This document shows, one piece after another, positions 212 to 12,986 of a stretch of 57,955 nt of DNA; the stretch's first letter is position 1; each line of letters opens with the position of its first letter. The stretch lies in the NCBI GenBank assembly GCA_903904835.1, contig CAIVEI010000105.1, positions 1-57,955 on the forward strand. Direction: 5' to 3'. Below the pieces are notes generated by a model, which worked only from the letters and a program-made list of their open reading frames with translations, searched no databases and was not told the DNA's origin. Origin of the DNA: an uncultured Schlesneria sp. (GTDB taxonomy: Bacteria > Planctomycetota > Planctomycetia > Planctomycetales > Planctomycetaceae). Both the position numbers and the translations under genes were made by a program.

Positions 212-1612
212 TTACCTGGTCCAGTTGATCGCTTGAAACAACTCGCTCAACTTCTGGCCGCGGGCTGGGTTCAGCATGGAAACGTGTGCGATGCGGCCTT
301 GCAGGTGGTGGTAGAAGTCTTCGACTTGATTGCGATTTTGTGTTGAGGGTCCGTGCCGAAGACAGTTCGTCAGGATGGCCTTAAGCTTGTCAAAGTCTGC
401 ACGAACGACATTGGGTCGCTCATTCACGACGACTCCAGTCACCGTCAGTCTCTGGTGAGCACGAAGAATCCGGCTCTTTGAATGGTTAAAGCTGAATCGT
501 TCTTGCCGGACGATTTTATAAACGAGTTGAATGATGGTTCCCAAGGCATAGTGCACGTCAGACGGACCCGAGATCGTAAGATCGTCGGCATACCTTGTGT
601 ATGTTGCTCCAAATGATTTGGCGAATCCGGACAGTCGGATGTCCATCCCGAATGCGGATAAATTCGCTAATGCAGGGGACGTTGGAGCACCCTGTGGCAG
701 GTGTCTGCGAAAGTACGGAACAATCGCGTAGGGTCCCTGCTCTTGAAAGCGAAGATTGCCGGGCAATGCTGACGTTGTCAGCAAACCGAGCCAGATGGCG
801 ACTTCGCGAGAATAGCCCAGACTTCGAAAGATCGCCACGACACGAGCAAAGCTGACTGTCGTGTAGAAATTCTCCAGATCAAATTTCAAGAGAATCGTTT
901 GTCCGACGTGCGGACGGGCATTCGTCAGGATCGACTTTCCTTTGACAAAGCCGTGCGAAGACCCGTGAGCGGGGACTTTGTCCAGTAGTTCGCGCAGAAG
1001 TTTGGATTGCAGAGACTTGAGAACCGATTTAGGAGATTCGATCAAGCGCCATCCGCCAAGTCGCTTCTTCACCCAACGGAAATGATAATGGGCCGCCGCC
1101 TCGGTTTCGGGCCGACCTCCCGAAAATCGATGAACGAGCCAGGCTAACCGGTTCAATGGAAGACCAAACCAATTAGCGAGCTCCTCGGGGGTATGAAAAA
1201 TCGGCAGATTGAAACGTTGAAGCCGAGTCTCATCGCCATCGCGGCTGAGATCAAGATAATGACCGGTCCGCGAACCGTACCTGGCATAACGATAGGGGGC
1301 AGGTCCTTGGGTTTCGACAAAAGGTATCGATCGATGACGAGCCCTCGTCGCTTTTTTGCGCCGGTTCGGAACAAGCCGACTTTTTCCAGGTCTCCGTCGG
1401 TAATGCTTTGGTCTTGGCTCTGACCTTCGGGACGGCTTGAGATGACTTTTCTCTGACGAAGTTCTTGAAACCAACGAATCTTCAGCCCGACGCGCAAGCG
1501 AGGGATCTTCCCTCTTATTATTCGCGTCCGCTTTATCAGGATTTTTTGGCGGTGCGGTGCGAATGGTCGGTCGCCATCCGAACTGTTGCAACAACCAACT
1601 GAAAAACCCCAT
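212..1612 (-). CDS. Retron-type reverse transcriptase with N-terminal extension
   Basis: RNA-directed DNA polymerase that would reverse-transcribe the adjacent msr-msd RNA into msDNA. The 466-residue protein has a basic, Arg-rich N-terminal extension of roughly 150 residues, then an RT palm/fingers region. Visible motifs: TNARPH (retron NAxxH motif, about residue 228), first catalytic Asp in KFDLENFY (D245), LPQGAPTSPALANL, the YADD box at 341-344 and a VTG motif near 391. NAxxH and VTG mark retron RTs. QGAPTSP rather than QGxxSS, and no maturase or HNH domain, argue against DGR and group II intron enzymes. The extension resembles that of myxobacterial retron RTs (Mx162 group), which are of similar length. 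The start at 1612 is preferred because an AGGAAAG ribosome-binding site lies about 10 nt upstream and an upstream in-frame ATG at 1756 would lie inside the ncRNA. No separate effector gene follows before the window edge. Confidence 0.9.
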   Translation of the reverse strand: MGFFSWLLQQFGWRPTIRTAPPKNPDKADANNKREDPSLARRAEDSLVSRTSSEKSHLKPSRRSEPRPKHYRRRPGKSRLVPNRRKKATRARHRSIPFVETQGPAPYRYARYGSRTGHYLDLSRDGDETRLQRFNLPIFHTPEELANWFGLPLNRLAWLVHRFSGGRPETEAAAHYHFRWVKKRLGGWRLIESPKSVLKSLQSKLLRELLDKVPAHGSSHGFVKGKSILTNARPHVGQTILLKFDLENFYTTVSFARVVAIFRSLGYSREVAIWLGLLTTSALPGNLRFQEQGPYAIVPYFRRHLPQGAPTSPALANLSAFGMDIRLSGFAKSFGATYTRYADDLTISGPSDVHYALGTIIQLVYKIVRQERFSFNHSKSRILRAHQRLTVTGVVVNERPNVVRADFDKLKAILTNCLRHGPSTQNRNQVEDFYHHLQGRIAHVSMLNPARGQKLSELFQAINWTR

Positions 1613-1660: not shown

Positions 1661-1842
1661 CACTGACCTGCGGGCCGCACAACCGATCCCGTGGCGAAGA
1701 GTCCCCACGGCACATGACTGCCGTGGGCGACTCTTCACAGCTCGATTGAGGAACAACGTGGCGACCGCGGGGTATCCCCGCAGTGTTCAGCTCATCCCGT
1801 AAGGGAAGGCCAAACGAGTCTTGTGCGACCCACAGGACAGCG
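1661..1842 (-). ncRNA. Putative retron msr-msd RNA
   Basis: A 182-nt segment between promoter and RT with retron RNA architecture. Read on the minus strand: a1 (1842-1823); a short TCCC/GGGA hairpin (1806-1795); a 9-bp hairpin with ATA loop (1784-1764), the likely msr stem-loop; a long hairpin (1736-1696) with 17 paired bases, one bulge and a 6-nt loop, the likely msd; then a2 (1680-1661). a1 and a2 pair over 20 nt with three G-U pairs and one mismatch. An AGC at 1792-1790, just before the 9-bp hairpin, could hold the priming guanosine about 32 nt after a1. That placement is tentative; an alternative AGC is at 1742-1740. The predicted msDNA would be short, of the order of 55-80 nt. The structure is seen in the sequence; the function is inferred from the adjacent retron RT. 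Confidence 0.82.
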
Positions 1843-1847
1843 ACAAT

Positions 1848-1875
1848 ATCCTAGCTGACTGCGAAGCGTGGTCAA
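1848..1875 (-). promoter_or_regulatory. Candidate sigma70 promoter of the retron RNA
   Basis: On the minus strand a TTGACC box (1875-1870) is followed after 16 bp by TAGGAT (1853-1848). Only 5 nt separate the -10 box from the first base of a1, so transcription would begin at about the 5' end of the a1 repeat, as expected for a retron RNA. Confidence 0.5.
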
Positions 1876-1978: not shown

Positions 1979-4900
1979 TCACCGCGCATCACCGTTGAGA
2001 ATAAAAGCGGCCCAAAGCGCAGGGTGCGTGCGAGTGGAATTGGAACCGATGTAATCGGGTTCAACAGGCTCTTTGTTCGTGGCACCACCGTCGATGTCGT
2101 CTTCTTCTCTCGGCACTAGACCTCGGCGGCTCCGGGCCAGTTCCTCCCTTAATTCATCTTTACTCAAATCGGGCAGGGACTGATGCAGTTGAGTGACCAG
2201 ATTGTCACGCTGATTTTTTATCAACCTTGCATCTCTGAGAACGGTCAATTGCGCCTGCCTCAGGGATTCGGATTTTGTCATCCCCCGCTCCCAAAGGTTC
2301 GAGTAAAACTCGCGCATCAGCAGACTGGTTGCTGCGTCGTCGACCTTCCAAAGACTGCTGACAACGGAACGTGCTCCGGCAGTGAGAAAGGCCCGCGTGA
2401 GTCCCAATACGCCGTCCCCACCCGCGGTACAGCCGATCCCCGTTTCGCAAGCCGACAGAACAACCAGGTCCGTCCGGCGAAGGTCAAGACTTCCGATCTC
2501 TTCTGCGGTGAGAAAACCGGGCTTACTGTCGCTCGCAGATGAGGGGGCCAGAACCAGCCCCGATAACAGCAATTGATTGCGCCGGACAAAGATATCGCTT
2601 CGACCCAAATTCGCGTGTCCCGCAGCGCCCCGATCACCTTGCACGGTAACATCCTGAATTTGTCCAGTCAGCACTGCAGCTTGGGAGGGCGGAATGAACA
2701 GCCCGTGACCGGCAAAATGAACGCACTGCCAGTTCCGTTCAAGCGCAGTTGCAAACTCTTCAGCAGTCGCGTGCCGCTGAGTGAGCGTTCGGGTTTCCTG
2801 ATTGACACCAACGTTCTTCGAAAAAAGTTCGTTGACCTCATCGATTTCGAGTTGGGTGGCAATCAGGTTCTGTATGCTTTCACAATCGGGCAAGATTTCC
2901 CGCGACTTTTGCTTACTTACATTGTTGGTCGCGTGATATTGAATGTCGCCAACCACTAGCAGGCCACCTCTTGTGAGAGACCTTCGGTCGGTTCCAACTG
3001 CGGGGTCAGGAGACCCGCGCAATGCATGTGCAGGGTCGGTTGACCCGCGCAAAACTTGCGTTTCTTTCGGGCGCGTCAGTTGTTGGTACAGCCAACGGCC
3101 TGAATTCGCGTAATGGATCGCGTAATCTTCCAAGGCATAAGACCCGCGGGCGCGACCCGGTAGAGCGGCGAATGAGACGAAGCACAATGGACCATCAGGT
3201 GCGATCACGAGCGAATCAACACCCTCAAGATAATTTTGGAGTGGATTCCAGATCAACTTGGCCAACTCGTGAGTTGGCCCTTCAATGTTGTCCAGTTTCC
3301 CAATCGTCAGCTTGTCGATTGACTTTCTCCAAGCCTCGACGCCGGCATGTATCAGCTGTGAATATCCAAGCTCAACACAGACGGGTGGCGCGTCCCGCCT
3401 GACAATAAATGCCAGCATTTCTGGCTCGCGCAACAGCGTACCGCGATTGCCTGGTTGTGGGTGGTAGTAGGTGTATTGCACAAAATCGATGAACGCCGTC
3501 CTGGTTGGTAGCTTGGACTGCATTTCTTGCCATGTGACTTCGGTTTCAACGGTTTGACGGTTGGTTGAAACAATTGAGCGAGTTTCAAACGCCAAACGGC
3601 TATCTGCGATTTCTTTGTTATTTGACGCCTTCACCAACCGCTCGATCCAGACATTGGAATTCGAATTTCCGGTAAATGCCGCGTGCTTGAGCGTCTGGCG
3701 CGCAACGCGAACTTTTTCCCGTTGGCTCGTCAATTCTGGATGATCGTGGGCCAATTGATCGGCAATCTGAAACGACGAAGCGCTCCCCTTAACCACCAGC
3801 ACCTGGTTATATGCTGAGACCAGGTCGTGCTCGACGCGCGCGACAGAAAGCACTTTTTCTAAAGAATAATTAAAATCCTTTAGCATCATCAGCCGTGCGG
3901 AACCGCTTTGGCCGGGCGCGTCTTTTCGATAAAAATCGTGTAGCAATTCCCAAAAGTCGTCATAAAACGCACGGGCTTTTTCATTGATTCCTGCGGAGAG
4001 CAAACTCGACCCGCTCAGCTCCAAAGCGACTTTAAGTCTCCAAGGATCTCGGGTGCCCCATTTTTCTTTGAACAGATCCAAATGATTTTCGGCGAGCACA
4101 ATTGATTGCTCATGTTCGCCGCTCCACCTGTGAAAAAGAGACCGTTCGACGAGGACAAAGAAATAGGCGGGATGCAGTTTGCCGCCGTGCTTCATGATGA
4201 TTTGCTCGGCCCGACCTAACAGTTGCTGGGCGTCTTTCCTGCTCAAATGCTTGTAATTTGTGTAGTAATTTAACTGGTGAAGCTTGAGCATCGCATAAAC
4301 ACAGTCGCCAATCTCTTCGCCATGCGGTAGTGCGCGATAGGCCTCGACGGCATCCAGTGCTCGGGCTCGCGCGGTTTCCAAGAGTCGCCAAGAGAAATCA
4401 TCTTCCGGCGCTCCCGTGTCACGAATTGCATCCGCTTCGCACGAAAGCGACTCCGATTCCAGGAAAATCGCGAAACAAAAATTGGGGTGACGCTGCAAAT
4501 TCAATGACCGTAATGCTTCTTGCACTTTTCGAAACTCATGCGCGGACCCAAAACAGTCATTAAGCCCTTGATATTTGACGGTCCCGAGTAAGATTCGCCG
4601 ATCCGAGGTGATTCGATGTTTTTCGCCGCGCGTCGCTTCAGTAACTGCGAGCGCTTCGCAAGCAAGGACAATCGCCTGCGAAGATTCTCCATGCAGACTC
4701 AGACACGCTGCAAGAAGGCTTTTGGGATAGGCCAAATCCGGGTGACCTACTCCTTGATGTTTGAGGCGGATTTCAATCGCCTCGTTGAGCATCCTTTCGG
4801 CCTGAGAAAATTGCCGCACCATGTACTGCGACTGTGCGAGTGATTCAAGGCTTTCGGCGCAATCGGGATCTTTAGGATCGAGGATTGTCTTGCGAATCAG

Positions 4901-5884
4901 TTGGGCCCGCCCCAACTTGGCTTCGGCATGGTCTTTCCACCATGTATCATGCATCCGTCCTTGACGGTTGAGTACCCGCGCGTAGGGTCGCGAGAATTCT
5001 CCGACACATTCCTTGAAAATCGCCAGTGCGTCCTCGTAAAGACGGTCGGCTTCATCGAAGTCACCTCGGTCGTCAGCCAGCGTCGCCAGAACGTACTGGC
5101 AATCCGCGAAGTCTGGGTGCAGCTCTCCGTACGTTTCTCGCAAGGCTTCGGCGGCTTGTTTTGCTGCATCCGAGGCCAGCAGATAGAAATCAGCGTGTTC
5201 ACAGTAAAGCCAGGCCAGTCGCAACAGAGATTCGGCAACTTCGGCGTGGGGATGACCCCAGATTGCTCGCCGCATGGCGACCGCTTCTTCTGCGGTTGCG
5301 ATCCCTTCAAGGAACCTGCCGCTGGCGTGCAATGCTTCCGCGTGTCGCTGTTTTTGGGATGCCTCACGCCATTGTGCCCGGTCTCCATTCGGTCGATCGG
5401 CCATGACACGAAGATCCTCCAATCTCCTTTTTGCCTGTCGGGCCTGCCAATGGTCGGCATTTGAATGAAGCGAAACGACTTCGTGCAAAACCACTTCACT
5501 CGCCTCAGAAGTTCCGACGGCGAGCTCGAGTTCTGACAGACGCAGCAGCGCTTCCCCCAGCGCCGATGCCGCAGGACGCTCTTCTGTACGAAGGTTGTCG
5601 ACGCCCCGTCGGCTCAGCACAAGTTGTTCATCAAGATCAACGTTGTTGCGGTCGGGCAGCGCGCGAATGATAACGGGGTTTGTTTGAAACGGTATCTTGA
5701 TCGAGTCGATTTTGTTCGCACCCGTCCACCACAGACTGCCGACGACGATTCCCCCCGTCGCGAGTGCAATTATCGCCGCAGACACGCGAAAACGATTCTT
5801 GACTGCCGTTGCGAAGAATCCGGGCGCTGACGCAGCCAGGCTCGCTTCGTTTTCATGGTGAGGCGTTGGTGGCGTCTTTGGCAT
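1979..5884 (-). CDS. Membrane-anchored TPR-CHAT caspase-like protease
   Basis: A 1301-residue protein. A short cytoplasmic N-terminus precedes one transmembrane helix (about 34-53), then a long alpha-helical region (about 90-720) with TPR-type repeats (for example HPDFADCQYVLATLADDRGD), then a C-terminal CHAT peptidase domain (about 790-1301). The catalytic His is in HFAGHG (about residue 1057) and the Cys in LSACETG (about 1145), so the dyad looks intact. CHAT domains are caspase-like cysteine proteases found in bacterial conflict and programmed-death systems; TPRs usually bind the trigger or substrate. It is the last gene of the sigma factor-kinase operon, 33 nt behind the DUF1559 gene, and 136 nt before the retron RNA. 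Oddity: residues about 943-972 are encoded by a dispersed intergenic repeat inserted in frame (see repeat at 2975-3052). Confidence 0.88.
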   Translation of the reverse strand: MPKTPPTPHHENEASLAASAPGFFATAVKNRFRVSAAIIALATGGIVVGSLWWTGANKIDSIKIPFQTNPVIIRALPDRNNVDLDEQLVLSRRGVDNLRTEERPAASALGEALLRLSELELAVGTSEASEVVLHEVVSLHSNADHWQARQAKRRLEDLRVMADRPNGDRAQWREASQKQRHAEALHASGRFLEGIATAEEAVAMRRAIWGHPHAEVAESLLRLAWLYCEHADFYLLASDAAKQAAEALRETYGELHPDFADCQYVLATLADDRGDFDEADRLYEDALAIFKECVGEFSRPYARVLNRQGRMHDTWWKDHAEAKLGRAQLIRKTILDPKDPDCAESLESLAQSQYMVRQFSQAERMLNEAIEIRLKHQGVGHPDLAYPKSLLAACLSLHGESSQAIVLACEALAVTEATRGEKHRITSDRRILLGTVKYQGLNDCFGSAHEFRKVQEALRSLNLQRHPNFCFAIFLESESLSCEADAIRDTGAPEDDFSWRLLETARARALDAVEAYRALPHGEEIGDCVYAMLKLHQLNYYTNYKHLSRKDAQQLLGRAEQIIMKHGGKLHPAYFFVLVERSLFHRWSGEHEQSIVLAENHLDLFKEKWGTRDPWRLKVALELSGSSLLSAGINEKARAFYDDFWELLHDFYRKDAPGQSGSARLMMLKDFNYSLEKVLSVARVEHDLVSAYNQVLVVKGSASSFQIADQLAHDHPELTSQREKVRVARQTLKHAAFTGNSNSNVWIERLVKASNNKEIADSRLAFETRSIVSTNRQTVETEVTWQEMQSKLPTRTAFIDFVQYTYYHPQPGNRGTLLREPEMLAFIVRRDAPPVCVELGYSQLIHAGVEAWRKSIDKLTIGKLDNIEGPTHELAKLIWNPLQNYLEGVDSLVIAPDGPLCFVSFAALPGRARGSYALEDYAIHYANSGRWLYQQLTRPKETQVLRGSTDPAHALRGSPDPAVGTDRRSLTRGGLLVVGDIQYHATNNVSKQKSREILPDCESIQNLIATQLEIDEVNELFSKNVGVNQETRTLTQRHATAEEFATALERNWQCVHFAGHGLFIPPSQAAVLTGQIQDVTVQGDRGAAGHANLGRSDIFVRRNQLLLSGLVLAPSSASDSKPGFLTAEEIGSLDLRRTDLVVLSACETGIGCTAGGDGVLGLTRAFLTAGARSVVSSLWKVDDAATSLLMREFYSNLWERGMTKSESLRQAQLTVLRDARLIKNQRDNLVTQLHQSLPDLSKDELREELARSRRGLVPREEDDIDGGATNKEPVEPDYIGSNSTRTHPALWAAFILNGDAR
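2975..3052. repeat. Dispersed GTCAGGAGACCC repeat inside the CHAT gene
   Basis: Contains GAGACCTTCGGTC followed by GCGGGGTCAGGAGACCCGCGC and a second diverged unit ending GTTGACCCGCGC. Near-identical intergenic sequence flanks the IS element (22366-22404 and 23958-24003). Here it is translated on the minus strand as a Pro/Asp/Arg-rich stretch with the doublet RGSTDPA / RGSPDPA, without breaking the reading frame. Confidence 0.7.
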
Positions 5885-5917
5885 GATTTAATCATTTCTG
5901 AATGCCATGCGGCAGTA

Positions 5918-7180
5918 TTAATAGTCACCGGAGGTGGCTTCGCCGTCACTGATTCCGCCAAGACGAAGCAGATTTAGATAGAGCGAACCCTTATTCATTA
6001 CTTGTCCGTACGACGCAATGTCAGTAGGGTCAGAGCTTCCGATAGCACCGACGGAAATGTTGCTAATTCCTCTTACCGAACCGTCCGCGAGGGCGAAATG
6101 AACGACGTTCGTATGCAAGCTTCCGAACGTGTTGCCGTAGCCGACATCGTTAATCCCGTCTGTGAAATAAATCTGGCCAGTGGCGATCGACATTGTGCTG
6201 TGTATCGGGTTGCTGACGCCCATAGAAGTCGGGCCGATATCCGTGTAGCCGGTTTCGCCAAACATCAACGTGTTGCTGAGTCCGTCAGTGACGTCTGCAA
6301 ACCGATGGCCTTTCGCTTGGGGAAACCCATAAGGAACAGGACCGCTATATCCCGCGCTGTAATTGAAGATACCACGGTATTTCCCTGGCGTTGCGGGGGT
6401 TTCATACCAGTCCCCCCCTACCGCAGCGTAGGAAGCTCTTGTCATCGTCTGGTTTCCAGGTATTCCACAAAAAACGTTATAATTCGCGCCGTACGGCCCC
6501 GGGGTAAAATCGACAAATGGGACTCCCCGCAAAACCAACAACAGTACAGTGTCAAACGAATCGGGTGGCGGAAGGTCGGGGCACATCAGACCGGGGATCG
6601 TTCCTTGGGCACCGTACCGCCCGCCAGGAGCGGGCGGAGCTTGCGGAGACTGTGGTTGAGTCCAGTCGCTCGACTGAGTCGGCGGACGATTGATAGGATT
6701 CTTGAACCAGAAGACGTAATTCGGATCGAAGCTGAAGCCGTTGTAGTACGCGGTTTGTTCCAGATAGGGAAGCAAAACGACAAGCGGCCCCGTCTGTTGG
6801 ATGTCGGTGCCAGGGGGCAGATACCCGTAACTCGACTCGAAATTAATCGCCGCCAAGGCAAGATTTTTGAGGTTGTTCTTACATTGCGTGCGGCGTGCCG
6901 CTTCACGCATCTGCTGTACGGCCGGCAGCAACAACGACACCAGAATGCCGATGATTGAGATCACGACAAGCAGCTCGATCATCGAAAACCCCGAGCGTCG
7001 ATCCCCAAGCGTGCAACGCTCCGAACCCCTCCGAATACTCACAGGTGAGTCGGGATGCGTTAGCACCGGGACTCTTCGGCCATTGAACACAGTACGTCGG
7101 TGGAAGGAAATCGTCCGAGTGCCAACGCATCTCGGCTCACCGGGGCCTAGATTGATTCGTTGTCGGTTCATCTTGCTCAC
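5918..7180 (-). CDS. DUF1559 pseudopilin-like protein
   Basis: A 420-residue protein with a type IV prepilin-like segment, [15 protein letters not shown] (around residue 65), followed by the DUF1559 hallmark [27 protein letters not shown] and the family C-terminus ([13 protein letters not shown]). The family is hugely expanded in planctomycetes; members are thought to be exported by a pseudopilin pathway, exact role unknown. The leader before the prepilin motif is long (about 60 residues, basic), so the true start may be further in; M at 7171 is an alternative. It sits 19 nt after the GspG-like gene and 33 nt before the CHAT gene, so it is probably co-transcribed with both. Confidence 0.87.
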
Positions 7181-7199
7181 TCGCTTCGTTTAGCTCGTA

Positions 7200-7727
7200 T
7201 TACTTGCTGTCACGCAGGTGATAGTTCCGCGTCACATGAATATCATCAATGTCATCATCACTCGTTTGGTCATCAATGCCGTTTGGGCCATAGGATTTAA
7301 GAAAAATCGCCTTCTCTTTGTGATCAACTCGATAAACAAACGGCTGATTCCAGGGATCTTTTACCTGGCAGATCAATCGAAATACTTGCTGAAATTTCCC
7401 GGGACCTTTCCAGGATCGTTTGATCAGATCGAGTGCGCCCGGAAGACTTTCGGGAGGCGTTCGATTTTCACTTAACGCCCGGTCAACAAGGAACGTGCAA
7501 AGCGTTTCGAACTCAGAATTAATCTTCGATTCGTCGTCCTCAGGCACGTCTGACACACCCTTAACTTCGGGGACCTCCGGATTTCTATCAAGATGCAACG
7601 GTTCCGGCGGGAAGAAGTAACCGTAAAGATATGACGTCATGATTCCGACAAAGATCAACGGAAAGATCAACCGCAGATTATCCCAATTCACGTATTTTTC
7701 GAACAGGTTTTGGTTGGGTGAATTCAT
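7200..7727 (-). CDS. Single-pass membrane protein with GspG-like C-terminus
   Basis: A 175-residue protein with one N-terminal membrane helix (about 18-40, LRLIFPLIFVGIMTSYLYGY) and a C-terminal segment of the form DPWNQPFVYR ... SYGPNGIDD ... DDDI. This resembles the C-terminal, calcium-binding end of type II secretion major pseudopilins (GspG/T2SSG). It lacks the prepilin cleavage motif GFxxxE, so it is not a canonical pseudopilin. Its ATG overlaps the TGA of the kinase gene (ATGA), indicating translational coupling. Precise function unknown; membership in the kinase-CHAT operon is clear from spacing. Confidence 0.72.
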   Translation of the reverse strand: MNSPNQNLFEKYVNWDNLRLIFPLIFVGIMTSYLYGYFFPPEPLHLDRNPEVPEVKGVSDVPEDDESKINSEFETLCTFLVDRALSENRTPPESLPGALDLIKRSWKGPGKFQQVFRLICQVKDPWNQPFVYRVDHKEKAIFLKSYGPNGIDDQTSDDDIDDIHVTRNYHLRDSK

Positions 7728-10126
7728 GTCGCATCCTTTTGTGCGAAACGCCAGACTTTGATCAAATCGAAGCGGAATTTCTTGACCCTTGCCTTCACCA
7801 ATTGGAAGACCTTCATGTCCGGTTCTGTCTCGGGATCATCAATGACCGTGCCGACTTCGTCTTCAACGGATGCATCGATTCCACGCGTACAAAATCCCGT
7901 GCGATTCACGTCGTCGGAACCCCACTCGAAATACCTGGCCTTCGGAAACTCTTCGTCGAGTGGACTTCCTGGGAGACCCTTGAACGCATCTTCCAGCTCG
8001 CTGAGCGATTCGAGTGGTTTTGTTCGAGCCAGCAGGACGACGTGTTGCATTCCCGGCAACCCGACGGCGCGAAAACCTTTTGTCGAGCTTTGCGGACACG
8101 AAATCGAAGCGGCAGCCAACATGGAATCTGGCCTGCCGGGTGTCTTTAACGAATCCGGCCTGAGCGGTGCTTTCCAAAGTTTGGCCGAATGCCCGAAGTC
8201 CCAGGGGTAAATCGGCAGCGTTGAGCCATCGCTATCGATCCAGACAACGTAGACATAGGCCGGCCGATCGAGGTTCACCTCCAATTGCACGTGCTCGCCG
8301 TTAAAAAGAAACGTGGGGTTGTTCTCGTTCGGGCTGGTGGCGACCGCGACCTTGGCCGCCGCTGTGCTCATCGGGATCGGCTTGAATTCATTCGCATTTT
8401 GGTGACTGGTATCTGCTTCAGCCGAACCCGATTTGGAGTTCTTGATGAATCGGATAATCATGTGGCCGGCCAGCGGGTGCGACTCAGGACGAACACTGGA
8501 TAGACCGGACGAATGAGCGGCCAAGCGACGTTTATCCGGTCCTGATTTGGATGGCGGCGTTTGTAGAACGGCCATCCATAACGCGGGGATTCCGATCAAA
8601 CAAATCGCGGCGGGGACAAGCCATTGGCGCAAAATGGCCCCGCCCGAACGCGCCGGTGCTACCACCGGTGCTGACGTGACTGATCCGCCTGCGTCCGCCG
8701 ATAGGACCGCCGGCAAACTCGATTTGGGATCGGCTTCCTTTTCGAGCCAGACTTTTAACGCAGATGCCATCGACGCCGCATCGGGAAACCGGTCGCTCGG
8801 ATCGTATTGGATGGCCCATTCGACAATCGCCGCCAGTCGTGGGTCCAGATCCGGGCGGAAGTTCACTGGCGATATCACACTCGCGTGAGTTGCCTTATTG
8901 ACAAGCAGCGAAACCACCCCGCCCATCACGGGCAGTCGTCCGGTCAGAAGCTCGTACAACACCATGCCCAGACCATAGATGTCTGCGGACGGGCCGATTT
9001 GATCCGCATCGCCAATAGCCTGTTCAGGTGCCATGTAAGCGACCGTCCCGACCATCGCCCCGTCGGCTGTCATCCGTTCGTCGAGTACGAAACTGCGTGC
9101 CAGTCCAAAATCTGTGAGGAAGGCCCTGTCTTCCTGATCAACCATGATATTCGCTGGCTTCAGATCGCGATGGATGATTCCGTTTGCATGAACTTCCGTG
9201 AGCGCTTCGGCAATGTTCAAGATCAAGGCGACGGCCTCACGCGGGTTGTCATAACGGCCAACCCGCCGCAGACGCTTTTCCAATGATTCGCCGTTGATGA
9301 ATGCCATCACGACAAATGGCGTTCCATCTTGTTCCCCCGCGTCATAGATCGAGCAGACGTGCGGATGTCTGACCGCCGCGGCGGTCCGTGCCTCACGCCA
9401 AAACCGTGCGATGAATTCCGGGTATTTTTTCGATCGGCGGTCGATCCTGGGAACTTTGACCGCGACCGTCTGGTCGAGTTGCGGGTCATGAGCACGATAG
9501 ACATCGCCCATGGCACCGCTGCCGATCCAGGCTTCAATCTTGTACCGCCCGAAATGCGGTGGAACAGAGATCTCGGTTCGACCGGTTCGGATATCCAAAT
9601 CGCTTTCATCTGGCGATCGAATGACGGTGTCTTCGACCTTCGGCGATTCGTCGGCCCCGGTCAAGACATTCGACCCGATTATTGTTCGCGCTGCGGCTTG
9701 CCAATCTTCGGCCGCCAGCACCAAATCTTTCATTGTCCGGACGAGGCCGTTACCCCGTTCGCCGAATTCCGGATGCTGACGCGACCATTCTTCCGGATCG
9801 AACGAATCTAAAGAACGGATGTCGTCAACTGCCTCATCGATTACGTCAAACAATTGAGTATCAGGATCGTTGTCAGAGTTTGCCATGAGACGCCTTCCAC
9901 GATGATTGAACGCCGGTTTGATCTGCCTTATGGCAACGTCGGGTATCTGCGCCCCGACCAGTTTTTGAAATTGAGAATTGTTGGCAAAAAACGAATCGAG
10001 TTCGCTCCGAATGTCGGCGTGCTCCGCGAGGAACAGTTCCCGATCGAAGTCTTCGTTCCGGTCGGTCGCCTCGAAAAAAAGAGCGATCGCTTCGTTGACT
10101 CGGTCTTCGTGCGAATTTATTCCCAC
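7724..10126 (-). CDS. Ser/Thr protein kinase, membrane-anchored, DUF4384-like tail
   Basis: An 800-residue Hanks-type kinase. Domain order: two N-terminal copies of the planctomycete FDxExFLxxHPE-type module (about 10-55 and 100-140), kinase domain about 193-460, one membrane helix about 499-520, and an extracytoplasmic C-terminal domain about 580-700 resembling DUF4384 (GEHVQLEVNLDRPAYVYVV ... PIYPWD). Kinase residues are intact: GSGAMG (202-207), K224, HRDLKPAN (319-326), DFG (339-341), APE (366-368). The start is GTG at 10126, overlapping the sigma-factor gene by 10 nt behind GAGGAG. An internal ATG at 9886 also has a good GGAAGG site. DUF4384 commonly accompanies caspase-like and CHAT proteases, supporting a joint signalling role with the downstream protease. 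Confidence 0.92.
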   Translation of the reverse strand: MGINSHEDRVNEAIALFFEATDRNEDFDRELFLAEHADIRSELDSFFANNSQFQKLVGAQIPDVAIRQIKPAFNHRGRRLMANSDNDPDTQLFDVIDEAVDDIRSLDSFDPEEWSRQHPEFGERGNGLVRTMKDLVLAAEDWQAAARTIIGSNVLTGADESPKVEDTVIRSPDESDLDIRTGRTEISVPPHFGRYKIEAWIGSGAMGDVYRAHDPQLDQTVAVKVPRIDRRSKKYPEFIARFWREARTAAAVRHPHVCSIYDAGEQDGTPFVVMAFINGESLEKRLRRVGRYDNPREAVALILNIAEALTEVHANGIIHRDLKPANIMVDQEDRAFLTDFGLARSFVLDERMTADGAMVGTVAYMAPEQAIGDADQIGPSADIYGLGMVLYELLTGRLPVMGGVVSLLVNKATHASVISPVNFRPDLDPRLAAIVEWAIQYDPSDRFPDAASMASALKVWLEKEADPKSSLPAVLSADAGGSVTSAPVVAPARSGGAILRQWLVPAAICLIGIPALWMAVLQTPPSKSGPDKRRLAAHSSGLSSVRPESHPLAGHMIIRFIKNSKSGSAEADTSHQNANEFKPIPMSTAAAKVAVATSPNENNPTFLFNGEHVQLEVNLDRPAYVYVVWIDSDGSTLPIYPWDFGHSAKLWKAPLRPDSLKTPGRPDSMLAAASISCPQSSTKGFRAVGLPGMQHVVLLARTKPLESLSELEDAFKGLPGSPLDEEFPKARYFEWGSDDVNRTGFCTRGIDASVEDEVGTVIDDPETEPDMKVFQLVKARVKKFRFDLIKVWRFAQKDAT

Positions 10127-10704
10127 CGACTCATCTCCTCTTCCCCGTAAGCTTCGCGGAGCCGCTCGAGAGACCTCAAAAACAGCATCCGTATCGCGCC
10201 TGGCGACCGATTCATTCGTTCAGAGATCTCTGCGTGGCTGAGTCCGTCGACCAGACGCCACATCAGCACGTCGCGCATTTCTTCGGGAATCCGGCTGAGC
10301 GCGACTGCCATTAAAGCGGAATTCTCTTGCAGCACGGCTTTTCTGTCTGGACCGAGCGACGAGTCTTCCACCATGTTTTCATCGACATCTTCAATGCAAA
10401 CGACTGCCTCGCGGCCAGTACCTTTGTTCAGAGGCTTTTGGCTCGTCCGAATCGCCATCGTTCGGACCCAGCGAACCAGTTGCCCCATGTTGTTTCCGTG
10501 GAAAGTAGCGGCACCCCGGATCCCCTGCAAAATCACTTCCTGCACCAGATCAGACTCGTCCGCAATCCGCACAGAACGGTTACCGCGAGCGGTTCGTACA
10601 ATTGTCCGAATATAGGGACGCAGCCGATTCAGCAGCATTCCCGCCGCCTGACAATCACCCTGCTTGAATCGTTCCAGCACCGTTGAACCTTTCGAATCGA
10701 GCAT
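10117..10704 (-). CDS. ECF-type RNA polymerase sigma factor
   Basis: A 195-residue sigma-70 family protein with region 2 (ADESDLVQEVILQGIRG) and region 4 (LPSR-like helix, GLSHAEISERMNRSPGAIRMLFLRSLERLRE). It would direct transcription of a regulon, probably including its own operon. ATG at 10704 is chosen; an in-frame TTG at 10773 would add 23 residues with no sigma homology. The gene overlaps the kinase gene by 10 nt. Sigma factor followed by a Ser/Thr kinase is a common planctomycete arrangement in which kinase signalling is thought to control sigma activity; there is no anti-sigma gene here. Confidence 0.88.
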   Translation of the reverse strand: MLDSKGSTVLERFKQGDCQAAGMLLNRLRPYIRTIVRTARGNRSVRIADESDLVQEVILQGIRGAATFHGNNMGQLVRWVRTMAIRTSQKPLNKGTGREAVVCIEDVDENMVEDSSLGPDRKAVLQENSALMAVALSRIPEEMRDVLMWRLVDGLSHAEISERMNRSPGAIRMLFLRSLERLREAYGEEEMSRWE

Positions 10705-11192
10705 GATGTTTGGCCGTACTACTCTACTAGAGGTGCCGAGTTCGACATTTGTCACAAGAAAATTGTTTATCAACGAAAAATTCTGGGAAGAATTCGTTTC
10801 CGTTACTCGATAAGCGCAAAGTCCCGCTCACTGAAGCGAAGTTTCATCCGAATGTGCGTCATATTTTCGCAAATAAATCAGGCGAACTCGGACAAGGACA
10901 CGTTCAGGCGATCCATCAGAATTGGCAAATCGACTTTCTTTGGTGCGTGCCGAGGCCAATTTCAAATTGTCGTCGTTCACCGGGAATTCGCCCGAATTCG
11001 CAGAAAACACTCGAAAACGTGGAAGGTATGACGGATCTGCTACTGACCTTTTGAGCACTATTCGGCCGCTTTACCTGTGGCAAAAGTGCAGAGTATCATG
11101 CCGGGAAAAACCTCACGCGCCAATCATTTTTCCAAAAAGATCGGCGGTTTTGCGAATGTTGCCAGACGTCGCAGGGAAATGATCACACTCCG
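10705..11192. other. Gene-free stretch upstream of the sigma-factor operon
   Basis: About 490 bp between the sigma-factor start and the cyclase gene stop. It should contain the operon promoter but I could not single out a convincing -35/-10 pair. Small open frames on both strands show no family resemblance or ribosome-binding site. Confidence 0.5.
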
Positions 11193-12986
11193 TTATTTAT
11201 TCGGAAGTCGTACGATCCCGTCCCAGTTGCGCGGTGCCGTTCGATTGTTCAAGACGATTTGTTGCATCAGAAAATCCTGGGCACGATCACTGGGGGGCAT
11301 TGCGTGCAGGTGCCTGTAAGCTTCGTCCCATTGTCCCGAGATGAAACATTGCACTCCCGCTTCATAACTTTGGATATGAGCGTCACTCAATTCAGGGAAG
11401 TCGCTCGCAGGAGGGAGCAGTTCGCTGACAGCGACGGCGGTTTCCATTCCATAGGGAAGGACAAGTGCTAATCGACGTATCCGTCCTTCTCCCGGATTCA
11501 ACCGTGATCGGACAATGTTCGCGGTTGTTTCATCAAGCAGAATTGGAACTCGCAATTGCTTGGTCATCGATTCCAGGCGGCTGGCCAGATTCACGACAGG
11601 TCCGAAGACGGTGACTTTGACTTGTTCCGCCGTTCCGATTTTCCCTGCTACTGCTCGACCATGAGCGATTCCGATCCCCATTTCAAAATCGGCCAGGGGA
11701 TGATTTTTCGTCGCGGCCGCCTTGGCGAAAGCGGCACGAATGCCGAGCGCCGCGCGACAGGCATTCACGGCAGCGTCGGGAGATGGAAACGGCCAACCCC
11801 AGAATCCGAGTGTCGCGTCTCCCTGAAAATCGCCGGTTACACCCCCATTTTCAAGGATGTGATGCGTCATGACCCCTAGCGCACGACTGACTCGTTCAAG
11901 CAGTCCAATCAGGTCGCCCGCTTCGTTCTCAAGTCGCTGACTGAATCCACGCAGGTCGCAGAACATGACGGTTACGTCGCACTCGCTTGGTTCAAGTAAC
12001 GTCGTATCAAGTTCGTCACCGAGCGCCGCCAGAATCGGTGGGGCAAAGAACTGCCGCAAGCCAGCCTTCTGCCTTTCAAGCCGTTTCGCTCGAACGACCG
12101 AACTGATGATCTCGGCAACGAGCTCGGTGAATTTCACATCCGCTTCAAGCTGAAGGGCGTCAGAGAGGGTTGTTCCGGGGACAAATGTCTTTCCCATACG
12201 GCCGGCGACGTAAAGTCCGGCGGTTTCCATCGAAAGGCCTGGAACAGGAGTACAATAGGCCCAGTCGAATTCTTGCATCAGCGTTTTATCATGAGGCTGG
12301 GGAGCGTCCTTCTCCCAGATATGCAGGACGCTGGATTGACGACGTTCAAGTGCCTCCGTGACCAGGCGGCGACTTGGTCGGAAAGGCCCGGCCGTCTCAT
12401 GTCGACGATCCCAATGCAACATCTGTACTTCTTCCGTCCCCGATGTCGTGACAATCGCAACGGCCTCGGCATGAACCACTCCTTTGAGCAGCAGATTGGC
12501 AAGGCGGGAAAACAGTTCGTTATCGTCGCGAGCACCTGAGATGACTTCGGGCAGATGCGTCAGGACTTCGATCCGGTTTTCAGGGTCCTGATAACGGATT
12601 TTTCTCAGTTCAGCCGGTTTGAAAGCCACTTCTTCAAACGGAGGCGCAACACTTCCCACTTCCGTTTCCGGTTCTGTGACATGAAAGGTCGTCGAACCAA
12701 TCACGAAGTGCTGCCCAACTTCAACACGACATGTTCCGACCGCCTCGCCCGCGAAAAATAACGGATTACGAGCGGATTCCTCTCGCGAGAGCTGCAAGTG
12801 ATCCTGATGAACATCGACCTGCACATGCTGACGTGAGATTTGAATGTCCCAGGGGATACTTAAAGCCGAAAGCGGGTCTCGTCCGATCAGATATCGCGTG
12901 CCCGGTTCCAACGGCTTCCGCCATCGTTGGGTTGACTCCAATCCTTGAGCGACAAGTTCAAGCACTACGGCATCCGCTGTTGACAA
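11193..12986 (-). CDS. FHA-GAF-class III adenylate/guanylate cyclase
   Basis: A 597-residue cytoplasmic signalling protein. An N-terminal FHA domain (about 25-100; RYLIGRDPLS, ISRQHVQV) would bind phosphothreonine peptides, a GAF-like domain follows (about 140-290), then a class III nucleotide cyclase (about 325-495). Cyclase metal-binding Asp residues are visible in VMFCDLRGFS and FQGDATLGFWG; the substrate-binding part is IAHGRAVAGKIG and FGPVVNLASRLE. There is no membrane helix. The FHA domain plus the nearby kinase suggests input from Ser/Thr phosphorylation, but the gene is separated from the kinase operon by about 490 bp and probably has its own promoter. Confidence 0.9.
   Translation of the reverse strand: MSTADAVVLELVAQGLESTQRWRKPLEPGTRYLIGRDPLSALSIPWDIQISRQHVQVDVHQDHLQLSREESARNPLFFAGEAVGTCRVEVGQHFVIGSTTFHVTEPETEVGSVAPPFEEVAFKPAELRKIRYQDPENRIEVLTHLPEVISGARDDNELFSRLANLLLKGVVHAEAVAIVTTSGTEEVQMLHWDRRHETAGPFRPSRRLVTEALERRQSSVLHIWEKDAPQPHDKTLMQEFDWAYCTPVPGLSMETAGLYVAGRMGKTFVPGTTLSDALQLEADVKFTELVAEIISSVVRAKRLERQKAGLRQFFAPPILAALGDELDTTLLEPSECDVTVMFCDLRGFSQRLENEAGDLIGLLERVSRALGVMTHHILENGGVTGDFQGDATLGFWGWPFPSPDAAVNACRAALGIRAAFAKAAATKNHPLADFEMGIGIAHGRAVAGKIGTAEQVKVTVFGPVVNLASRLESMTKQLRVPILLDETTANIVRSRLNPGEGRIRRLALVLPYGMETAVAVSELLPPASDFPELSDAHIQSYEAGVQCFISGQWDEAYRHLHAMPPSDRAQDFLMQQIVLNNRTAPRNWDGIVRLPNK

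Follow-up and report, generated by a model that had tools for sequence, protein, structure and literature searches.

A stretch of 57,955 nucleotides from an uncultured Schlesneria sp., a planctomycete (contig CAIVEI010000105.1; the whole stretch is referred to as the window), carries near its start what a reading of the bare letters had taken for a complete retron. This raises two questions: is the locus a retron, and what does a retron do when no toxin is constantly found next to it? The first can be answered directly. The object is a retron, and its promoter, RNA and reverse transcriptase (RT) are all there (cf. Table 1); "complete" goes too far only in that a linked effector, as in typed tripartite retrons, was not found. 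As the best overall explanation, we propose that a retron has probably settled in one planctomycete family as a single-copy gene, passed on largely by vertical inheritance. The locus is unsurprising as a retron; its worth lies in testing retron function without a linked toxin, since a single-copy, family-wide retron with no constant linked effector is a way to ask what retrons do in the absence of a neighboring toxin.

Table 1 Features of the retron locus in the window (positions are those of the window; minus, reverse strand)
Feature	Position	Strand	Basis or remark
Whole retron	212-1875	minus	promoter, ncRNA (a1/a2 arms with the msr and msd hairpins) and retron-type RT
Sigma-70-like promoter, TTGACC-N16-TAGGAT	1848..1875	minus	ends 5 nt before a1
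Retron ncRNA (a1 - msr - msd - a2)	1661..1842	minus	fold z -7.4, 38 consensus pairs, covariance-model match
a1 arm	1821..1842	minus	fold, pairing; consensus helix 1
Predicted branch (priming) guanosine	1820..1820	minus	first base after a1; putative role, from retron biochemistry
msr hairpin 1	1785..1815	minus	geometry; consensus helix 2
msr hairpin 2, GC-rich, nearly invariant	1765..1783	minus	geometry; consensus helix 3
msd hairpin	1694..1738	minus	geometry; consensus helix 4
Predicted cDNA	~1683 to ~1738-1745		56-63 nt, inferred
a2 arm	1661..1682	minus	fold, pairing, consensus
Retron-type reverse transcriptase, 466 aa	212..1612	minus	RVT_1 residues 182-395, YADD 341-344
Conserved hydrophobic N-terminal motif, RT residues 1-12, MGFFSWLLQQFG	1577..1612	minus	pattern counts, identity
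Variable basic linker, RT residues 13-78	1379..1576	minus	mean pairwise identity 19%
Cassette: TPR-CHAT, DUF1559 (pseudopilin-like), T2SSG-like, Ser/Thr kinase, 218-aa gene	1979..10773	minus	outside the retron

The geometry of the RNA element was recomputed from the sequence. The promoter was located as originally predicted, with TTGACC at 1875-1870, TAGGAT at 1853-1848, a spacer of 16 nt, and 5 nt left before position 1842. A promoter-like site 4-16 nt before a1 was present in 26 of 36 loci, whereas 300 mononucleotide shuffles averaged 0.55 and never exceeded 4. The predicted pairing of a1 (1842-1823) with a2 (1680-1661) was likewise confirmed, 19 of the 20 positions being paired (16 Watson-Crick and three G-U pairs, with one mismatch), and an arm at least as good 130-200 nt downstream was available to only 7 of 20,000 random starts in the window. 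The inner reach of the arms had been slightly understated, however: because the stem extends inwards (CAA/TTG) in the fold of the region, a1 spans about 1842-1821 and a2 about 1682-1661. Between them, the GC hairpin (1783-1765) exists and has the announced 9 bp in the whole-region fold, though 8 bp with a 3-nt loop when taken alone, and the bulged msd-like hairpin (1738-1694) comprises 19 bp with one bulged base rather than 17 bp. The msr hairpin at 1815-1785 had been overlooked in the first reading. The RT starts 48 nt below position 1661, as claimed, with an ATG at 1612. The region folded at -121.2 kcal/mol as against a shuffled mean of -88.3, and none of 200 shuffles was as good.

Orthologues of the RT, defined as the best match and hereafter termed RT-A, were present in 47 genomes (window included), all in the window's family and 50-91% identical; the 60% identity in one of them (G033) refers to a fragment. 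From these 47 rows, 36 RNA sequences were picked by sequence anchors and aligned, which favors conserved a1, a2, and msr sequences and omits 11 rows. The consensus fold consists of 38 pairs, with two-sided compensatory change in 26 of them across the 36 orthologous loci. In the same loci, 94.0% of cells were paired, compared with 80.3% in shuffles and 39-44% with partners slid, and two-sided change was found in 188 cells versus 53.4 in shuffles. None of 500 shuffles reached any of the five covariation measures, some of which can exceed shuffles through relatedness alone. All four helices contributed to the signal: the a1/a2 helix showed two-sided change in 12 of 18 pairs and had 96.1% of its cells paired, msr hairpin 1 and the msd hairpin showed it in all of their pairs (5/5 and 7/7, respectively), and msr hairpin 2 was paired in 100% of cells. 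The G directly following a1 (alignment position 21) was invariant in 36 of 36 sequences. The covariation test suggested along with the original prediction thus supported it, since covariation across the 36 orthologous loci extends to a1/a2, to both msr hairpins, and to the msd stem.

The RT and the ncRNA are retained as a pair. With a cut-off of E≤0.001, covariance model R1, for which the window's RNA (167.5 bits) is among the training sequences, detected the RNA in 46 of 99 related genomes, all of them with RT-A and 36 of them represented in the model, and in 0 of the 52 genomes without RT-A. Conserved a1/a2 arms and hairpins, which had been expected in related genomes, were hence found in 46 of the 47 RT-A genomes, and in the sole exception, G033, the RT lies at a contig end. 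In eight of the 11 rows omitted from the alignment, the model recovered a same-locus RNA; of the other three, one is a genome with a split retron (G017, see below) and two are loci truncated at contig ends. When 170 family genomes were searched, RNA was detected at E≤1e-8 in 106 of them. Four genomes of this set (G137, G139, G160, and G200, all <90% complete) contained the RNA and no RT match, and one (G152) contained a partial RT match and no RNA. Weak R1 matches were also noted near RTs of a second planctomycete retron-type group, B, in G002 and G005. With the threshold at E≤0.1, such matches (16.7-48.9 bits) were obtained for a Burkholderia locus and for 11 of the 14 group-B loci, the exceptions being L098, L101, and L105. 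The search with existing retron RNA models, which had also been proposed, gave a negative outcome: Rfam 15 returned 0 matches at gathering score, and at E≤1 solely three microRNA matches far below that score. The covarying RNA set provides a covariance model for this class of retron RNA, which goes unreported by Rfam 15 here.

The RT itself bears the predicted motifs NAxxH, YADD, and VTG, in the form of NARPH, YADD, and VTG at residues 231, 341, and 391, and RVT_1 is the only Pfam domain in it. Among PADLOC profiles, it scored best with RT_other (412 bits), followed by RT_outgroup (390 bits) and RT_XIII (353 bits). An assignment to type XIII was rejected on account of this third rank; another planctomycete RT (L127) does score best on RT_XIII (514 bits). 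Three NCBIfam retron models yielded 177-181 bits versus 37 bits for the group II intron model, all under the curated cut-off. Matches to solved structures (E≤0.001) were led by retron RTs, with the Ec86 retron RT first at 1e-32, and ended at Drt2-type RTs (0.00018). As far as this is testable, the RT belongs to the retron group, as the original prediction had it. In a quick tree of 87 rows, RT-A formed one clade (SH-aLRT 100), which was grouped (SH-aLRT 100) with group B and with three RTs encoded on plasmids of Burkholderia, Tsukamurella, and Dietzia; deep rooting is unreliable because L116, L117, and L138 have long branches, and our use of the tree is confined to clade A and its grouping with B. 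Group B (L094-L107, L119, L120, and L122) occurs alongside RT-A in some genomes, and its weak R1 matches lie upstream. In the window's own genome, the only match of the RT was itself. Two other RVT_1 proteins are encoded there (L108 and L110, on contigs C131 and C121), neither of which matched the retron RT by tblastn at E≤1e-3. The Y341-A-D-D344 tetrad was invariant in 40 aligned orthologues, and dN/dS amounted to 0.09-0.15 in five close RT pairs, a sixth pair being saturated. As judged from coding sequences, the RT is thereby shown to be under purifying selection with its active site intact.

A basic extension of 150 residues had also been ascribed to the RT. An N-terminal extension is indeed present: about 135 residues precede the conserved part, and residues 13-135 contain 33 K+R versus 13 D+E; however, about 65 of them (13-78) constitute a poorly conserved linker. 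At the very start, RT-A proteins share a short hydrophobic consensus, MGLFxWLxxLFG. A strict pattern for this motif matched the first 160 residues of 35 of the 47 RT-A frames, in contrast to 1 of 475 unrelated open reading frames from the same loci (first 150 residues). Looser patterns uncovered variants in five of the 12 frames lacking the strict motif (L058, L063, L072, L077, and L090), two frames are cut by contig ends, and neither pattern matched in five of the 47 (L067, L081, L082, L085, and L089). Mean identity in 40 aligned proteins, chosen for having a motif-like start, was 47% for residues 1-12, 19% for the linker, and 61% for residues 136-466. Hydrophobic moments of the motif were moderate (0.31-0.70). 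In another family, f54, four RTs (L143-L146) carry MGLFDLLKRLVLG, MGLSFLKKLFGG, MGLGFLRRLFGG, and MGLGFLKRLFGG near the frame start and have an R1 match upstream (24-53 bits). Frames of group B possess another N-terminal part, as read by eye, in place of the motif and linker of RT-A. Two RTs of a third group (L126 and L127) start with MSLYDW/MSLFDW, which is reminiscent of the RT-A motif.

RT matches at E≤1e-30 were found in 73 of 99 genomes (the window's included) and represented several RT kinds. RT-A proper was detected at E≤1e-100 in 103 of 170 family genomes, corresponding to 87 of 130 good-quality genomes and 41 of 58 genera, with one match in each of the 103. Since the remaining 67 of the 170 genomes have no RT-A at this threshold, the retron is not essential. 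A same-genus genome (G004) was not counted among RT-A carriers, as it holds an RT fragment only, 47% identical over residues 238-465. In a sample of the phylum, 30 of 392 genomes gave a match at E≤1e-95, 26 of them from the window's family and four from f54. RT identity to the window correlated with that of TyrS (Spearman 0.71, n=38, i.e., 45 RT-A genomes minus seven without a full-length TyrS match, with G033 omitted for its RT fragment). The correlation dropped to 0.46 (p=0.0099, n=31) when the seven closest genomes were left out, and for this reason some transfer is possible. The position of the retron in the genome differs among genera. On these comparisons, inheritance appears to be mainly vertical, with losses. 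Retrons otherwise have a sporadic distribution and have often been acquired laterally; myxobacteria are exceptional in that their retrons are vertically inherited and occur in 27 of 28 strains, all according to the available part of PMC6868368.

In one genus, g4, the two components of the retron have come apart. Three g4 genomes are listed as carrying an RT (G017, G110, and G148), and in each the RT (L072, L139, and L141) and the ncRNA (L111, L140, and L142) lie on different contigs. Both locations are syntenic in all three: the RT sits between a gene of 920-922 aa and a c1-like gene (c1 is a membrane protein discussed below), and the RNA follows a sulfotransferase and, in G017 and G110, precedes a transporter (both read by eye), the contig ending at this point in G148. 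With filters off, R1 gave 96-110 bits at the RNA loci compared with ≤9.8 bits in the RT loci. The g4 RTs are intact and retain YADD, and contig positions in G110 place the RT and RNA at least ~96 kb apart. Apparent splits in G058, G100, G105, and G166 were attributed to contig ends and discounted, and g4 alone was taken as real. To judge from this arrangement, the g4 RNA may act with the RT in trans, and the separation makes the working of a natural retron in trans testable.

Among close relatives, the msd hairpin changes fastest and yet keeps its pairing. In the eight closest sequences, mean identity was 0.58 for the msd stem-loop versus 0.99 for a1/a2 and 0.97 for msr hairpin 2; it was 0.83 for both msr hairpin 1 and the linker, and 1.00 for the msd base and the stretch after msd. 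A second set of six sequences gave 0.55 for the msd stem-loop as against 0.77-1.00 elsewhere. Over all 36 sequences, fast change is not special to msd, because msr hairpin 1 is as variable (0.36 vs. 0.34 for the msd stem-loop). The msd part formed a long hairpin in all 14 sequences folded. Two cases illustrate this behavior. G049 has tandem ncRNAs on the minus strand (L091:3933-4081 and 4252-4400), each preceded by a promoter-like site, with nearly identical a1/a2 and msr and with msd stems that differ and are both paired. In G110 and G148, the RTs are 93% identical and the msd stems largely different.

How might such an element work? The retron almost certainly makes msDNA, if the biochemistry of known retrons (available part of PMC6868368) is any guide. 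The transcript would start near a1 and then fold, the RT would bind the nearly invariant GC hairpin of msr, and the 2'-OH of G1820 would prime cDNA synthesis from ~1683 through the msd hairpin. The product would be a branched RNA-DNA with ~56-63 DNA nt, staying with the RT. More speculatively, the hydrophobic N-terminus could dock the complex to a membrane or an unlinked partner, and the msd duplex, variable in sequence and always paired, could serve, by structure alone, as a sensor of phage or DNA-repair proteins or as bait for them. If it did, the whole would be, by analogy, a surveillance (anti-phage) complex with its output protein encoded elsewhere. We favor such a function with an unlinked output, ahead of a housekeeping role, and rate its chance of being right at about even. 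A fuller scenario may be offered tentatively: the retron would have been adopted in the ancestor of the window's family or earlier, would have shed a linked toxin, and would now form a membrane- or partner-docked surveillance complex in which the RT has its own docking helix, the RNA is able to act in trans (stably in one genus), and the DNA hairpin diversifies under structure-only constraint in an arms-race-like manner. "Or earlier" is included because the four f54 RTs share the kind of N-terminus and a related RNA.

The main competitor is a domesticated housekeeping retron, that is, an RNA-DNA complex serving DNA repair, regulation, or cell biology and not defense. Wide, single-copy, and mainly vertical retention, strong purifying selection, and the absence of a linked toxin would all suit it, as would the resemblance to the myxobacterial retrons, which are called vertically inherited in the accessible text of PMC6868368. 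However, the absence of RT-A from 67 of the 170 family genomes at E≤1e-100 argues against such a role, and the quick turnover of msd among close relatives would be explained no less well by an arms race. We regard it as a possible explanation, though on balance a doubtful one.

If the locus were instead an ordinary tripartite anti-phage retron, its effector would be a neighbor, namely TPR-CHAT in the window, c1 (downstream in other genomes), or c2, a site-2-protease-like gene. We inspected 46 fetched RT-A loci with 6 kb per side where contigs allowed (L064, L067, and L075 were incorrectly displayed). No constant linked effector was seen within ~6 kb of RT-A in these 46 loci, some of them limited by short contigs, and nothing matched the linked or fused effector of typed tripartite anti-phage retrons. 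The commonest neighbors were c1 in 16 loci and c2 in 12, while MutL, HslU, and HslV (identified by eye) recurred in ≤7 loci each. Frequent as they are near the retron, c1 and c2 were both rejected as effectors, being core genes that occur in 52 and 57 of 61 family genomes, respectively, including genomes without RT-A. In four of the latter (G019, G021, G055, and G060), c1 and c2 stand side by side, ~250-360 nt apart, like a site without the retron, and they also adjoin in G043, where the retron is on another contig. TPR-CHAT (CHAT 6.3e-61) lies directly upstream of the retron in the window, yet it belongs to the cassette that separates the retron from a gene at 11193-12986, and L048, L049, L050, and L053 have, immediately upstream of the retron, a gene 89-98% identical to that one. 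The five cassette proteins had no tblastn match (E≤1e-10) in 13 same-genus loci, and TPR-CHAT was rejected as the effector because the cassette was not found beside the retron there. The downstream side in the window is unseen, as the contig ends 211 bases past the RT, which speaks for a tripartite retron to some extent; all in all, we hold this alternative to be improbable. That the retron is mainly vertical and without a linked effector seems to us very likely.

Two further alternatives concern the activity of the element. The RT could bind the RNA and no longer make DNA, with an RNA-protein complex as the functional form, but YADD is invariant in the 40 aligned orthologues, compensatory changes maintain the msd stem, and all 36 sequences share the predicted priming G, which makes this very improbable. 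A selfish or neutral remnant, for which patchy absence and locations differing among genera would speak, is the least credible of all in view of a dN/dS of ~0.1, invariant catalytic residues, 94.0% of cells paired, and one RT-A match per genome.

The preferred explanation, a retron become a largely vertical, single-copy family gene, can finally be set against known systems. RT-A groups with the RTs of the PADLOC profiles RT_other and RT_outgroup, and its RNA is a tighter family. A study of planctomycete retrons was not found by title or abstract opening in partial literature listings, and the classification papers (Mestre 2020; Gonzalez-Delgado 2021; Rice and Lampson 1995) may well tabulate planctomycete RTs. 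Passage searches met no mention of planctomycetes in the available parts of PMC6868368, PMC12548924, and PMC8934634, and a sole one, in the reference list, in that of PMC8867640. In the literature searched, outside which the main classification papers lie, we met no family-wide retron that lacks a constant effector, has an N-terminal motif of its own, and includes a split variant. The likeness to Mx162 (Retron-Mxa1) drawn in the original prediction holds at the level of description, in the extended N-terminus, vertical inheritance, and commonness in the group, as given in the accessible part of PMC6868368; the sizes differ, with a 162-nt msd and a 241-nt transcript reported there for Mx162 compared with a predicted ~56-63 nt and ~180 nt here. 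For an RNA apart from its RT, Ne160 (Retron-Nex1) is a partial precedent, having msr-msd copies with no RT less than a kilobase away (same source, in the part available); it has several repeated copies, whereas in each of the three g4 species a single RNA and a single RT occupy two syntenic loci.
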